Assembly: GCA_949293815.1 (NCBI GenBank)
Contig: CASFEZ010000024.1
Span: 1-37,140 of the forward strand
Source of the DNA: an uncultured Eubacteriales bacterium
GTDB taxonomy: Bacteria > Bacillota > Clostridia > Oscillospirales > Acutalibacteraceae
DNA: 37,140 nucleotides
Reading direction: 5' to 3'
Positions 34,749-37,140 of the stretch are shown here, piece by piece (position 1 is the first letter of the stretch; each line of letters starts with the position of its first letter). A model generated the notes under the pieces. The model was given only the letters and a program-made list of their open reading frames with translations, was not told the origin of the DNA and did not search any database. A program made the position numbers and the translations under genes.

Positions 34749-35338
34749 TCTTTGATTAGGTGAAAGATGACATATGCGCCAAACAGGATGATTGTCCAGT
34801 TGATTCCCCTATAGGCGGCGGCAAAGGCAAATAACAATTCAATGGCGAGCACACTGCAAAAAGCGGCTTTTTCACAAAGAAAGCCGCTTTTTTCGCTTTC
34901 TCGTACCCATCGCAGGCTGCGAAAAATCCGCTCGCCATCCAACGGCCTTGCGGGGAACAGATTGGTCAGTCCCATAAAAAAGTTGATAGCTGCGCCGTGA
35001 AGCACAATGGGGGATTTGCAAAACAAAAATAACAGAATACAGCAAAAACATAGTATGCCGTTGAGCAAAGGTCCGCCCGCTGCCGTCAGTAAATCTTCCC
35101 GGTAAGAAGAAATATGTCCCCTGTCCGGCTGTATTTGTGCGCCCAAGGGCGAAAGAAGCACTTGCTGCGGTTCAGCGCCGAAACGGCGCATGATAATTAG
35201 ATGTCCCGCTTCATGCAAAAGCGCGCTGCCGACAGCAATCAGGTAAATTTCCCCTTGACCGGAGCAAAGCAGCATTCCCGCAAGAGCAAGGTCGGGTACG
35301 CTGAACTGAAATACAAGCCGGTTTCTTTTAAACCGCAT
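34733..35338 (-). CDS. spoIVFB: SpoIVFB-like site-2 (M50) intramembrane metalloprotease
   Basis: This 201-residue multi-pass membrane protease has the zinc motif HEAGH (42-46, Glu43 catalytic) in a membrane helix. A second metal-ligand motif, NLFPARPLDG, contains Asp134. This is the layout of SpoIVFB, which in sporulating Firmicutes cleaves pro-sigma-K in the outer forespore membrane. It is shorter than Bacillus SpoIVFB and appears to lack the C-terminal CBS domain. It starts 11 bp inside the end of the M23/LytM gene, the same neighbour order (spoIVFA-spoIVFB) as in Bacillus. A perfect terminator-like hairpin lies within the coding sequence at 34859-34893. Assignment as SpoIVFB rather than a generic M50 protein rests on the gene pair. 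Confidence 0.82.
   Translation of the reverse strand: MRFKRNRLVFQFSVPDLALAGMLLCSGQGEIYLIAVGSALLHEAGHLIIMRRFGAEPQQVLLSPLGAQIQPDRGHISSYREDLLTAAGGPLLNGILCFCCILLFLFCKSPIVLHGAAINFFMGLTNLFPARPLDGERIFRSLRWVRESEKSGFLCEKAAFCSVLAIELLFAFAAAYRGINWTIILFGAYVIFHLIKDYDTC
34859..34893 (+). terminator. galT operon terminator embedded in the spoIVFB-like gene
   Basis: A perfect 12-bp stem (34859-34870 with 34880-34891, arm AAAAGCGGCTTT) with a 9-nt loop and a six-T run lies 110 bp beyond the galT stop. It is antisense to codons near residue 150 of the M50 protease. On the minus strand the same hairpin is followed by about four T residues. Confidence 0.78.
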
Positions 35339-36134
35339 TCAAATCACCGAACAGCGCTTCCATTGGGTCTACACATTCGCCGTTGACGCGGTATTCCAGG
35401 TGCAGATGCGGACCGGTGCTGTCGCCGGTGCTGCCAACCAGCGCAATGGCCTCGCCTGCGCGTACAACGGTGTATGGCTCGACCAGTATTTTCAGGCAGT
35501 GCTGGTACAGCGTCTGTATTTTTTCTTCCTCGGTATCCTTATGGTCTATGATTAAAAAATTGCCCCGTCCGGGGGTATAGTCTACCATGCTGACGATGCC
35601 GTCCATCACCGCGCGAATCACTGTGCCTTCCTTGGCGGCTATGTCTACGCCTTTATGCTGTTCGTTGTAATTATATATCGGGGACACCCGATTGCCAAAG
35701 GAGGAGCTGACGGAGCCGGCAACCGGAAAAACCGGTGCTGTTTGGATTTGCTGGGATAAAAAGGCGGCGGAGGCGGTATGACTGCTGTCGAGCGGATAGA
35801 GAGGGGAGGTATTATCCTCCTCTAAAAGGGAAGCGCTGACTGCGGTTGTCGCTTCATCCTCGGCGGCCGCTTCCTGCGGCGGCTCGGTTGTCTGTTCTTC
35901 ATCGGTATCGCTTCGTTCTTCCGGCTCTTCTGTACCGCCGGAAAAAAGGGCGCGGAAATCATTAAAATCCATATCCTGGGCAGTCAGCTGTCTATAATCC
36001 GCCAGCAGACGGCTGCCGTCGTCTGCGGAAAAACGGCAATATAAAAAGCAGGTCATATAAAGCGCAAGCATCAGCATCAGCTGTATGGTGGTTATTTTAA
36101 CAAAAAAATCTTTTTTCCCTTCCGGTTTTGGCAT
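35328..36134 (-). CDS. spoIVFA: SpoIVFA-like membrane-anchored LytM (M23) protein
   Basis: This 268-residue protein has a short basic N-terminus, one membrane helix (about 13-33, KITTIQLMLMLALYMTCFLYC) and an acidic Glu/Thr/Pro linker (about 65-115). The C-terminal LytM/M23 domain has His160 and Asp164 in HKGVDIAA and the HxH pair His243/His245 in TGPHLHLEY, so all zinc ligands are kept. In Bacillus, SpoIVFA has this architecture and holds SpoIVFB inactive until forespore signalling proteases remove it. Immediate coupling to an M50 gene supports that role here. The start is either 36134 (nine bases from AAAGGA) or 36140 (three bases). I favour 36134. A sigma-E-like promoter lies upstream. Confidence 0.8.
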   Translation of the reverse strand: MPKPEGKKDFFVKITTIQLMLMLALYMTCFLYCRFSADDGSRLLADYRQLTAQDMDFNDFRALFSGGTEEPEERSDTDEEQTTEPPQEAAAEDEATTAVSASLLEEDNTSPLYPLDSSHTASAAFLSQQIQTAPVFPVAGSVSSSFGNRVSPIYNYNEQHKGVDIAAKEGTVIRAVMDGIVSMVDYTPGRGNFLIIDHKDTEEEKIQTLYQHCLKILVEPYTVVRAGEAIALVGSTGDSTGPHLHLEYRVNGECVDPMEALFGDLNAV

Positions 36135-36158
36135 GGCCATCCGTCCTTTCTTGTTAAA

Positions 36159-36187
36159 GAAATATGACGCCGGTATAACAAATATGC
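36159..36187 (-). promoter_or_regulatory. Candidate sigma-E promoter of spoIVFA-spoIVFB
   Basis: Minus-strand GCATATT (36187-36181) fits the Bacillus sigma-E -35 consensus KMATATT exactly. After 14 bp, CATATTTC (36166-36159) fits the -10 consensus CATACANT in its CATA half. No sigma-A promoter of comparable quality was seen for this gene. Sigma-E control is what would be expected for spoIVF. Confidence 0.55.
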
Positions 36188-36204
36188 CCGTCCGGATGTT
36201 TTTC

Positions 36205-36233
36205 TTGACATGCGGCGCGGAAAAGATTAGAAT
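36205..36233 (+). promoter_or_regulatory. Promoter of the mgtE leader
   Basis: A perfect TTGACA (36205-36210), a 17-bp spacer and TAGAAT (36228-36233) begin a transcript at about 36240. The mgtE start is therefore about 207 nt downstream, leaving a long leader. Confidence 0.85.
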
Positions 36234-36292
36234 AAATATGGATTTCAAACGATGGCTTGTTTTTATTTTACAGATAAAAGGAGATGAGAAGA

Positions 36293-36382
36293 ATGGACGC
36301 AGGCCCTGGCAGTAGATGTCACCGATGTAGTAAGAAGCATAGTGCGGCTGTTCGTTTTTCTGATCTCTTTTTCAAGGGATAG
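36293..36382 (+). CDS. 29-codon leader peptide upstream of mgtE
   Basis: This is a short frame in the mgtE leader. Its ATG is preceded by AAAAGGAGAT with core AGGAGA at 36279-36284, eight bases away, a better ribosome site than that of most genes here. The peptide begins MDAGPGSRCHRCSKKHSAAV and ends RFSDLFFKG. Its second quarter has a compact Cys/His group (Cys9, His10, Cys12, His16) resembling a minimal metal site, and it is rich in Arg and Lys. Its 3' half lies inside a large hairpin, so translating it must open that structure. It ends 64 bp before mgtE. I do not recognise the peptide, and a regulatory uORF is the simplest reading. Confidence 0.65.
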   Translation: MDAGPGSRCHRCSKKHSAAVRFSDLFFKG

Positions 36383-36402
36383 AAGAACAGTGATTTTATG
36401 CT
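36336..36402 (+). ncRNA. Structured leader hairpin of mgtE
   Basis: Stacked complementary blocks form one long hairpin: AGCATA (36336-36341) with TATGCT (36397-36402), CTGTTC (36348-36353) with GAACAG (36385-36390), and an apical ATCTC/GGGAT stem (36363-36367 with 36376-36380). No U-run follows, so it is not a simple terminator. The M-box magnesium riboswitch core was looked for and not found. Confidence 0.6.
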
Positions 36403-36446
36403 CCTTATGATATCTTTTATTAGATTTGATAAGGGGGTCTTTCTTA

Positions 36447-37140
36447 ATGAAAGATGAAATCATTAGCTTGATTGAAAAAAGAAAATATAAAAGTTTATAT
36501 GATTTGCTGGAAGTTATGAACGAAGTGGATTTGTCCCTTCTGATGGCGGAACTGAACAACGAGGACATGCTCAAGGTCTTTCGTCTTTTGCCAAAGGACA
36601 AGGCGGTGGATGTGTTTTCCTATCTGGACTCGGACGACCAGCAGCGCCTGATTGCCAGTCTGACAGACAACGAGCTGGAAAAAGTAATCGGCGATATGTA
36701 TTTGGATGATACCGTTGACTTGGTCAGTGAAATGCCCGCCAATATTGTGCGGCGAATCTTAAAGACCACCGACCCGCACCAGCGAAAACTGATCAATGAA
36801 ATCCTGCAATATCCCGAAGACAGCGCCGGCAGCCTGATGACGATTGAGTTTGTGGATTTGCGCTCCAGTATGACCGTGGATGCCGCCATCGAGAAAATCC
36901 GCCGCGACGCGATTGACAAAGAGACCATTTATACCTGTTATGTTTTAGATGAAACCCGCCATTTGACCGGCATCGTGACGGTAAAAGATTTGCTGGTTGC
37001 CAAAGGCGATACGCTGCTTTCCGATATTATGGAAACCAATATCATTTCCGCCAACACGCTGGAGGATAAGGAAGATGTGGCGAAAATGTTCGATAAATAC
37101 GATTTTCTGGCGCTGCCTGTGGTCGATTCTGAAAATCGTT
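36447..37140 (+). CDS. mgtE: Magnesium transporter MgtE (5' part)
   Basis: The gene runs off the window end, and 231 codons are visible. The N-terminal helical MgtE domain is clear (LLAELNNEDMLKVFRLLP-type repeats, such as LMAELNNEDMLKVFRLLPKD). The linker is QYPEDSAGSLMTIEFVDL, and a CBS domain begins at DAAIEKIRR and runs through YTCYVLDETRHLTGIVTVKDLL. In characterised MgtE proteins these cytosolic domains bind Mg2+ and close the channel when magnesium is plentiful. The membrane domain is beyond the window. AAGGGGGT (36431-36438) lies eight bases before the ATG. The long leader with a small ORF and hairpin suggests control before translation as well. Confidence 0.93.
   Translation, partial: MKDEIISLIEKRKYKSLYDLLEVMNEVDLSLLMAELNNEDMLKVFRLLPKDKAVDVFSYLDSDDQQRLIASLTDNELEKVIGDMYLDDTVDLVSEMPANIVRRILKTTDPHQRKLINEILQYPEDSAGSLMTIEFVDLRSSMTVDAAIEKIRRDAIDKETIYTCYVLDETRHLTGIVTVKDLLVAKGDTLLSDIMETNIISANTLEDKEDVAKMFDKYDFLALPVVDSENR

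Follow-up and report, generated by a model that had tools for sequence, protein, structure and literature searches.

A conserved leader open reading frame ahead of Mg2+-uptake genes in many Clostridia is probably a translation-driven switch

The window, a 37,140-nt stretch of DNA from an uncultured Eubacteriales bacterium, ends inside an mgtE gene, of which the first part is present (36447..37140; like all features described here, on the + strand unless indicated). Its ATG lies at 36447, and the fragment scored 211.9 bits against TIGR00400, whose curated cut-off of 232.75 refers to the whole protein. A consensus scan placed a sigma-70-like promoter upstream of the leader (TTGACA-17-TAGAAT, 36205..36233, 11 of 12 matches); the leader region contained two promoter-like sites against 1.7 expected in shuffles, and three leaders of the same genus have comparable promoters upstream. 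The leader contains an ORF of 29 codons plus stop (uORF, 36293..36382, peptide MDAGPGSRCHRCSKKHSAAVRFSDLFFKG), preceded by the ribosome site AAAAGGAGATGAG. A divergent ORF (35328-36248, − strand) is a putative M23-type peptidase gene; its listed TTG start overlaps the mgtE promoter, so the true start is probably further in. The window's genome also contains a second mgtE-like ORF, 82-84% identical (L002; G000 contig C44, 15115-15297), which is cut by the contig end, leaving its leader unreadable.

The 223-nt leader folded better than 200 of 200 shuffled sequences (z = −3.62). The 3′ half of the uORF can form a stem-loop (36345-36392, −15.9 kcal/mol), followed by ATTTTATG; a hairpin scan detected the two together as a terminator-like hairpin with a weak U tract (36345..36400). 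The initial annotation of this stretch had named the ORF, its ribosome site, the promoter and the hairpin, and all four lie where it put them. It had also described the 3′ half of the uORF as buried in the hairpin: the hairpin can form, but in the minimum-energy fold this half pairs with the uORF ribosome site and not with itself. That pairing, and the terminator-like nature of the hairpin, had been overlooked. In the paired form, here called P0, a 5′ arm that runs from the ribosome site of the uORF through its start codon to codon 4 (36275..36304) faces the last third of the uORF (3′ arm, 36343..36373), with a mapped duplex energy of −30.3 kcal/mol. Folding from the in-frame CGA (codon 11, 36323..36325) onward gave a further helix, P1, which joins codons 11-17 (36324..36342) to 36395..36414. 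The 3′ arm of P1 overlaps both the U tract and an anti-SD strand, GCTCCTTATGAT (36400..36411), that pairs with the mgtE ribosome site (36428-36437). An Rfam scan of the window returned no match at the gathering score, and around the leader (36000-36600) it gave two weak, irrelevant matches (E 0.72 and 4.1) and no M-box up to E 5; the annotated absence of an M-box core therefore holds.

We collected mgtE upstream regions from the same genus, family and order (matching genomes, 39/60 and 179/295). Among the matches listed, 103 regions were chosen and 100 retrieved, and 146 of 156 loci were readable, 10 being left out because the mgtE start could not be placed. Under a loose rule, which asked for an ORF starting with M-D or M-E and an SD match of 4 bases or more in front of it, 94 of the 146 readable upstreams among these listed matches carried a uORF. 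Seeding gave 86 uORFs, of which 10 were dropped by hand, so that curated relatives precede mgtE in 76 of the 146 (again among the matches listed). Another 15 leaders contain a similar SD-preceded ORF with an in-frame CGA-AGT, giving 91 of 146 among the listed matches; five hand-removed seed leaders (L120, L131, L134, L137 and L176) count among these 15. The curated uORFs have a median length of 29 codons and a median stop-to-mgtE distance of 72.5 nt, and by eye their consensus reads M-D-A-G-S-S-x-G-T-x-P-x-G-R-S, followed by a variable tail. For the comparison with chance we used 145 upstreams (one of the 146 was too short) and 30 dinucleotide-shuffled sets. ATG-started uORFs of 15-60 codons with an SD of at least 6 occurred in 67 of 145 upstreams versus 2.5 in shuffles. 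Requiring Asp or Glu as second residue left 59 versus 0.1, an additional in-frame CGA 56 versus 0 in all 30 shuffled sets, and CGAAGT 30 versus 0.

A tandem mgtE pair (L037; G008 contig C82, 25663-27833) has the uORF leader on its first gene, with none seen on the second. At L053 (G026 contig C52, 6555-7922), a 728-aa open frame contains three stretches matching the start of MgtE, as if the N-terminal domain were repeated.

The leader ORF that the annotation placed before a Mg2+ transporter gene is conserved and bears coding signatures, but the peptide is not conserved where the annotation had sought its function. A CHRC group with a nearby His had been proposed as a metal-sensing element. CHRC occurs in one of 76 curated uORFs, that of the window itself, and CxxC in 3 of 76; at the same position the three other leaders of the genus read RHRW, RHRW and NHRC. 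Since CHRC is private to the window, Cys/His metal sensing is unsupported. Comparing peptides across mgtE leaders, as suggested, instead showed the start MD(A)G and an in-frame CGA-AGU; what the uORFs conserve is their N-terminus together with two codons, CGA and AGU. Searches of five uORF peptides, the window's included, against Pfam-A and NCBIfam gave no family at E ≤ 1.

Several signatures indicate that the uORF is a coding, putatively translated ORF. Start codons of the 76 curated uORFs vary (ATG 69, GTG 6, TTG 1), as do the third positions of Ala3, Gly4, Thr9 and Pro11. Across 18 hand-picked pairs compared without gaps, codons 2-14 gave a dN/dS of 0.39; for the tail it was 0.81, a value that this procedure may inflate. 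The uORF frame stays open for at least 20 codons in 76 of 76 leaders (the filter was 10), the +1 frame in 50 and the +2 frame in 14. Where CGAAGT lay no more than 70 nt from an SD-like site with (A/G)TGGA, whether or not an ORF was present, it was in frame 0 in all 34 cases (33 leaders), with none in either of the other frames; inside the curated uORFs it lies 36 times in frame 0 and twice in frame 1.

The codons themselves are restricted. CGA makes up 92 of 245 Arg codons in the uORFs (38%) versus 42 of 811 (5%) in mgtE stretches of the same loci, and AGT 125 of 284 Ser codons versus 87 of 950. An in-frame CGA is present in 70 of the 76 curated uORFs, at codon 10-14 in 56 of these 70, and AGT follows directly in 36 of 90 cases counted; in the window, CGA is followed by TGT AGT and not by AGT directly. 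Pairing of CGAAGU with an ACUUC arm was considered as the reason for its conservation and rejected, as ACTTC occurs in only 17 of 76 leaders. The 43 tRNA matches in the window's genome, which is 96% complete, include a single tRNA-Arg(ACG) but no tRNA-Arg(TCG), so CGA is presumably decoded via the inosine-adenine wobble, which rests on inosine modification of the tRNA. A37 was found on tRNA-Arg(ACG), tRNA-Arg(CCG) and tRNA-Ser(GCT), and G37 on the Pro, three Leu, His and Val(GAC) tRNAs.

These tRNAs bear on how Mg2+ might be read. In mgtL, according to excerpts of PMC6335274, m1G37, and hence TrmD, governs slowing at Pro, Leu and CGG codons; by the same route, low Mg2+ would leave less m1G37 on tRNAs and slow translation of the uORF. 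Besides this precedent, Gly or Pro stands just before the chosen CGA in 50 of 70 uORFs. Yet tRNA-Arg(ACG), the only tRNA found able to read CGA, carries A37 and so speaks against the m1G37 model, and tRNA-Arg(CCG) and tRNA-Ser(GCT) likewise have A37. For the restricted codons CGA and AGU in the window's genome we therefore rejected TrmD, and we consider it highly improbable as the Mg2+ reader of the uORF in general.

The same codon preference could mean that the uORF senses a cue other than Mg2+, such as the charging of tRNA with arginine or serine, the modification of tRNAs or a general stress on translation, Mg2+ transport being induced because Mg2+ supports ribosomes. The codon-specific CGA and AGU and the Arg-rich uORFs of some leaders fit such a cue. 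However, the regulatory codons do not come in a row, most uORFs having a single CGA; around that codon the uORFs avoid synonymous codons for Arg and Ser, unlike an amino-acid sensor; and the pattern matches described below precede Mg2+ transporter genes. We regard a non-Mg2+ cue as rather improbable.

P0 is a common property of these leaders. We ranked each leader's own duplex against duplexes with swapped partners in 70 leaders, the six uORFs of the 76 without an in-frame CGA being left out. For P0 the mean rank was 0.20 (chance 0.5), with 54-56% in the best tenth, compared with 0.45/0.44 for a control region, codons 3-11. Own P0 duplexes averaged −25.4 versus −19.6 kcal/mol for swapped ones, and 32 of 76 reached the 5th percentile of swaps or lower; the control, the ribosome site of mgtE itself, gave −13.2 versus −13.6 kcal/mol. 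Fitted duplexes show several pair types at positions −8 to −1 and at the third base of codon 3, and the first base of the start codon pairs as A-U 51 times and as G-C five times. Both P0 and a helix closing the mgtE ribosome site are present in a consensus fold of the four leaders of the genus; two-sided changes occur in 3 of 43 pairs and the covariation term is +1.5, so covariation gives no added support at this depth. In a MAFFT alignment of 13 leaders the tails were misaligned, and this alignment was excluded from pair counts. The 3′ arm of P0 starts at a median of 58.5 nt past the start codon (IQR 49-67) and 26 nt past CGA (IQR 17-31), and the loop between the arms measures 49 nt (IQR 38-56, range 10-82). 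Assuming a 30-nt footprint, 46 of 70 leaders have room between the arms for an entire ribosome whose A site is at CGA.

A structured RNA could in principle sense without translation, P0 and its loop (AGUAGU, CGAAGU) binding Mg2+ or a protein and the ORF being incidental. P0 pairs in all 70 CGA-mapped leaders and places the conserved codons in its loop, as such a sensor would. What is conserved in its 5′ arm, though, is the SD, the start codon and GAC, with start codons varying as given above, the frame of CGAAGT is kept 34 to 0 despite varying distance, and dN/dS is low in codons 2-14; we judge this explanation decidedly improbable.

The stretch between uORF and gene shows an excess of terminator-like hairpins. 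At −6 kcal/mol or below they occurred in 43 of 76 leaders versus 14.0 in shuffles, at −8 in 31 versus 8.0, at −10 in 23 versus 4.0 and at −12 in 19 versus 1.75. In 20 of the 31 leaders with a hairpin of −8 kcal/mol or below, at least 40% of the stem bases lie within the P0 arm. We folded transcripts ending at the U tract in three states: ribosome-free, ribosome at CGA, and uORF ribosome site covered. The mean hairpin probability in these 31 leaders was 0.44, 0.50 and 0.84, respectively. Between the first and the last state, 15 of 31 gained more than 0.3 and none dropped; between a ribosome at CGA and a covered site, the difference exceeded 0.3 in 12 of 31. In this model, then, the terminator-like hairpin and P0 are predicted to exclude each other in part of the leaders. 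The window's hairpin went from 0.00 and 0.00 to 0.59, in agreement with the annotated idea that ribosome position on the uORF would decide whether the hairpin forms, and that of L035 from 0.00 and 0.00 to 0.88. In L034 the values were 0.74, 0.78 and 0.86, and L036 has no such hairpin, so clear switching is predicted in two of the four leaders of the genus (the window and L035).

With ribosome sites swapped in from other leaders, the mean gain was 0.20 versus 0.40 with the leader's own (p = 0.009), and 8 of 31 still gained more than 0.3; the modelled excess of switching over this control (15 versus 8) is modest. The switch did not exceed 0.3 in 16 of the 31 hairpin-bearing leaders. A further 45 of the 76 leaders have no hairpin of −8 kcal/mol or below, and another output is needed there.

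A rival explanation is that control is translational and not transcriptional. A ribosome on the uORF would choose between P0 and the hairpin together with P1, and P1 would hold the anti-SD strand and free the mgtE ribosome site. The SD-sequestering helix in the consensus fold of the genus leaders is consistent with this, and the P1 3′ arm overlaps the best anti-SD arm by at least 4 nt in 40 of 70 leaders (31.8 ± 3.8 expected). When the uORF ribosome site of the window was covered, the expected pairs of P1 rose from 0.2 to 7.2 and those of the SD-sequestering helix fell from 7.9 to 4.1, a weakening that would act opposite to the attenuator model set out below. Likewise P1, which in the window competes with P0 and overlaps the anti-SD strand, could yield a translational output of opposite sign. 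Against translational control, the accessibility of the mgtE SD in 63 leaders was the same with a ribosome at CGA as at the stop (medians 0.20 versus 0.22, p = 0.49), and without a ribosome it was slightly above the stop state (means 0.27 versus 0.25, p = 0.002). In the window it stayed between 0.02 and 0.15 across all six states tried. A simple switching of the mgtE SD by ribosome position was rejected given the likeness of the CGA and stop states, and translational control overall seems unlikely to us.

P1 was also considered as the main switch. Pairing of the CGA region with downstream sequence had a mean rank of 0.28/0.34 against swaps in the same 70 leaders, and a neighbouring control, the tail after the core, was itself slightly above chance (0.38/0.44); P1 is thus supported, but more weakly than P0.

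The association with Mg2+ uptake was also found without reference to mgtE. A DNA pattern consisting of SD, ATGGAYGCNGG and CGAAGT, run over the genome collection, matched 18 loci: at 16 mgtE comes next, one match runs off the end of its stretch (L189), and one precedes a Mg2+ P-type ATPase gene (L204, Candidatus Borkfalkia avistercoris; TIGR01524, magnesium-translocating P-type ATPase, 1116.6 bits against a cut-off of 610.75). A looser pattern matched 17 of 391 genomes of the class at 18 places. Its in-frame short ORFs all precede mgtE (8 of 8), two of these genes being merely 22.7 and 31.0% identical to the window's mgtE; nine of the remaining matches lie within longer ORFs, and one in a short ORF before mgtE with CGAAGT out of frame (L217, near 1513), the sole exception among short pattern matches. 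Phylum-wide, 15 of 348 genomes matched. The three in-frame matches comprised two inside long ORFs and one uORF, MDTDPGRS..., before mgtE (L299, from another class; the identity of its mgtE is 47.6% across residues 7-231).

Upstreams of mgtA gave a related picture. ATG-started MD/ME uORFs with an SD of at least 5 occur in 7 of 26 (25 from the class plus L204), namely L204, L270, L273, L279, L281, L284 and L288, and two of them, L204 and L281, have an in-frame CGAAGT. For P0, 4 of 11 mgtA leaders beat at least 95% of swaps (L270, L271, L273, L284), and 7 fell below, including L204 (0.30) and, clearly, L282 (0.97). SD-preceded uORFs without CGA-AGT are seen in the mgtA leaders L271, L284, L286 and L288, with a strong ribosome-site-to-tail helix in L271 and L284. 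The P0 design may therefore be wider than the CGA-AGU code.

M-boxes were found in 3 of 40 other mgtE loci scanned. The notion that M-box and uORF are mutually exclusive alternatives was not borne out (2 of 20 loci without the uORF, 1 of 20 with it), and with just 2 of 20, most uORF-less loci have neither device. At L038, an M-box (2516-2674, − strand) lies upstream of a uORF leader, placing both devices in tandem before one mgtE.

This unannotated uORF before Mg2+-uptake genes is probably a translation-driven switch for Mg2+ uptake in many Clostridia. As to how it works, we favour, with evenly balanced confidence, a ribosome-controlled transcription attenuator of Mg2+-transporter genes. At sufficient Mg2+, ribosomes would keep loading on and clearing the uORF, so that its ribosome site is covered and P0 prevented; the freed uORF tail would then form the terminator-like hairpin, and the transporter gene would be off. 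At low Mg2+, the uORF would go uninitiated, or a ribosome would pause or drop off within the first ~14 codons, the weakly decoded CGA-AGU codons being the proposed sensitive point, and P0 would close, in the latter case around a paused ribosome held in its loop. Closed P0 would block further loading and withhold one arm of the hairpin, and transcription would proceed into mgtE. That low Mg2+ is what impairs uORF translation is suggested by the genes controlled and by analogy with MgtL.

More tentatively, and with real doubt, the leader may be an undescribed kind of Mg2+ sensor in which the ribosome itself senses at codon-specific CGA-AGU, pausing locks the ribosome site onto the uORF tail, and MgtE or MgtA expression is thereby opened. 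Under this doubtful reading, CGA-AGU would be an inosine-adenine wobble followed by a G-U wobble within a loop of about one ribosome's size, and the sensor would be widespread in Clostridia and reach at least one further class of the phylum. If it is true, many Clostridia gauge Mg2+ by ribosome performance, with a counterpart of enterobacterial MgtL in another code and RNA design, and CGA-AGU would let one test directly whether given codon-anticodon pairs are a Mg2+-sensitive step of translation. We found no description of the uORF element among open-licence PubMed Central papers.

Like MgtL of mgtA in Salmonella and E. coli, the uORF is a short SD-preceded ORF with an acidic second residue ahead of a Mg2+ transporter gene. 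By eye the two sequences show no likeness, which supports the annotated view of an MgtL-like logic without MgtL sequence. In that proposed logic, as far as excerpts of PMC6335274 and PMC11282234 state it, the gene is silenced when its leader is translated efficiently and switched on when low Mg2+ makes translation poor, as we propose here. Unlike MgtL, the uORFs have no EPDP-type destabilising motif; that of the window begins MDAGPGS, and within residues 2-7 two or more acidic residues occur in 8 of 76 uORFs and Pro in 9 of 76. The codon restriction concerns CGA and AGU here and Pro codons in MgtL, and the predicted output is an intrinsic-terminator-like hairpin, whereas that of MgtL runs via Rho. 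Moreover, the uORF's own ribosome site would serve as the antiterminator arm, and the device stands mainly before mgtE, in Clostridia.

The M-box riboswitch (RF00380), for which the window gave no match, also occurs, in the same bacteria, in the leaders of Mg2+ transporter genes. In Gram-positive bacteria, control of such genes by Mg2+ is mostly credited to the M-box, which we found in 3 of 40 mgtE loci scanned, compared with a conserved uORF in 76 to 91 of 146 leaders among the matches listed and before some mgtA genes. Classical trp-type attenuators likewise use mutually exclusive helices set by ribosome position, one of them terminator-like. In contrast to these, the uORF has no run of one amino acid's codons, and the ribosome site of the leader ORF itself takes part in the alternative helix. 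In Mycobacterium tuberculosis, according to excerpts of PMC12810186, an M-box controls the conserved uORF rv1805A with Rho-dependent termination; that system shares a Mg2+-linked leader with a conserved small ORF, but the window's leader has no M-box. Finally, the mgtE motif SRC-65-1, a riboswitch candidate that the excerpted text of PMC11109978 reports only from Thioalkalivibrio, lies upstream of mgtE as the uORF leader does.
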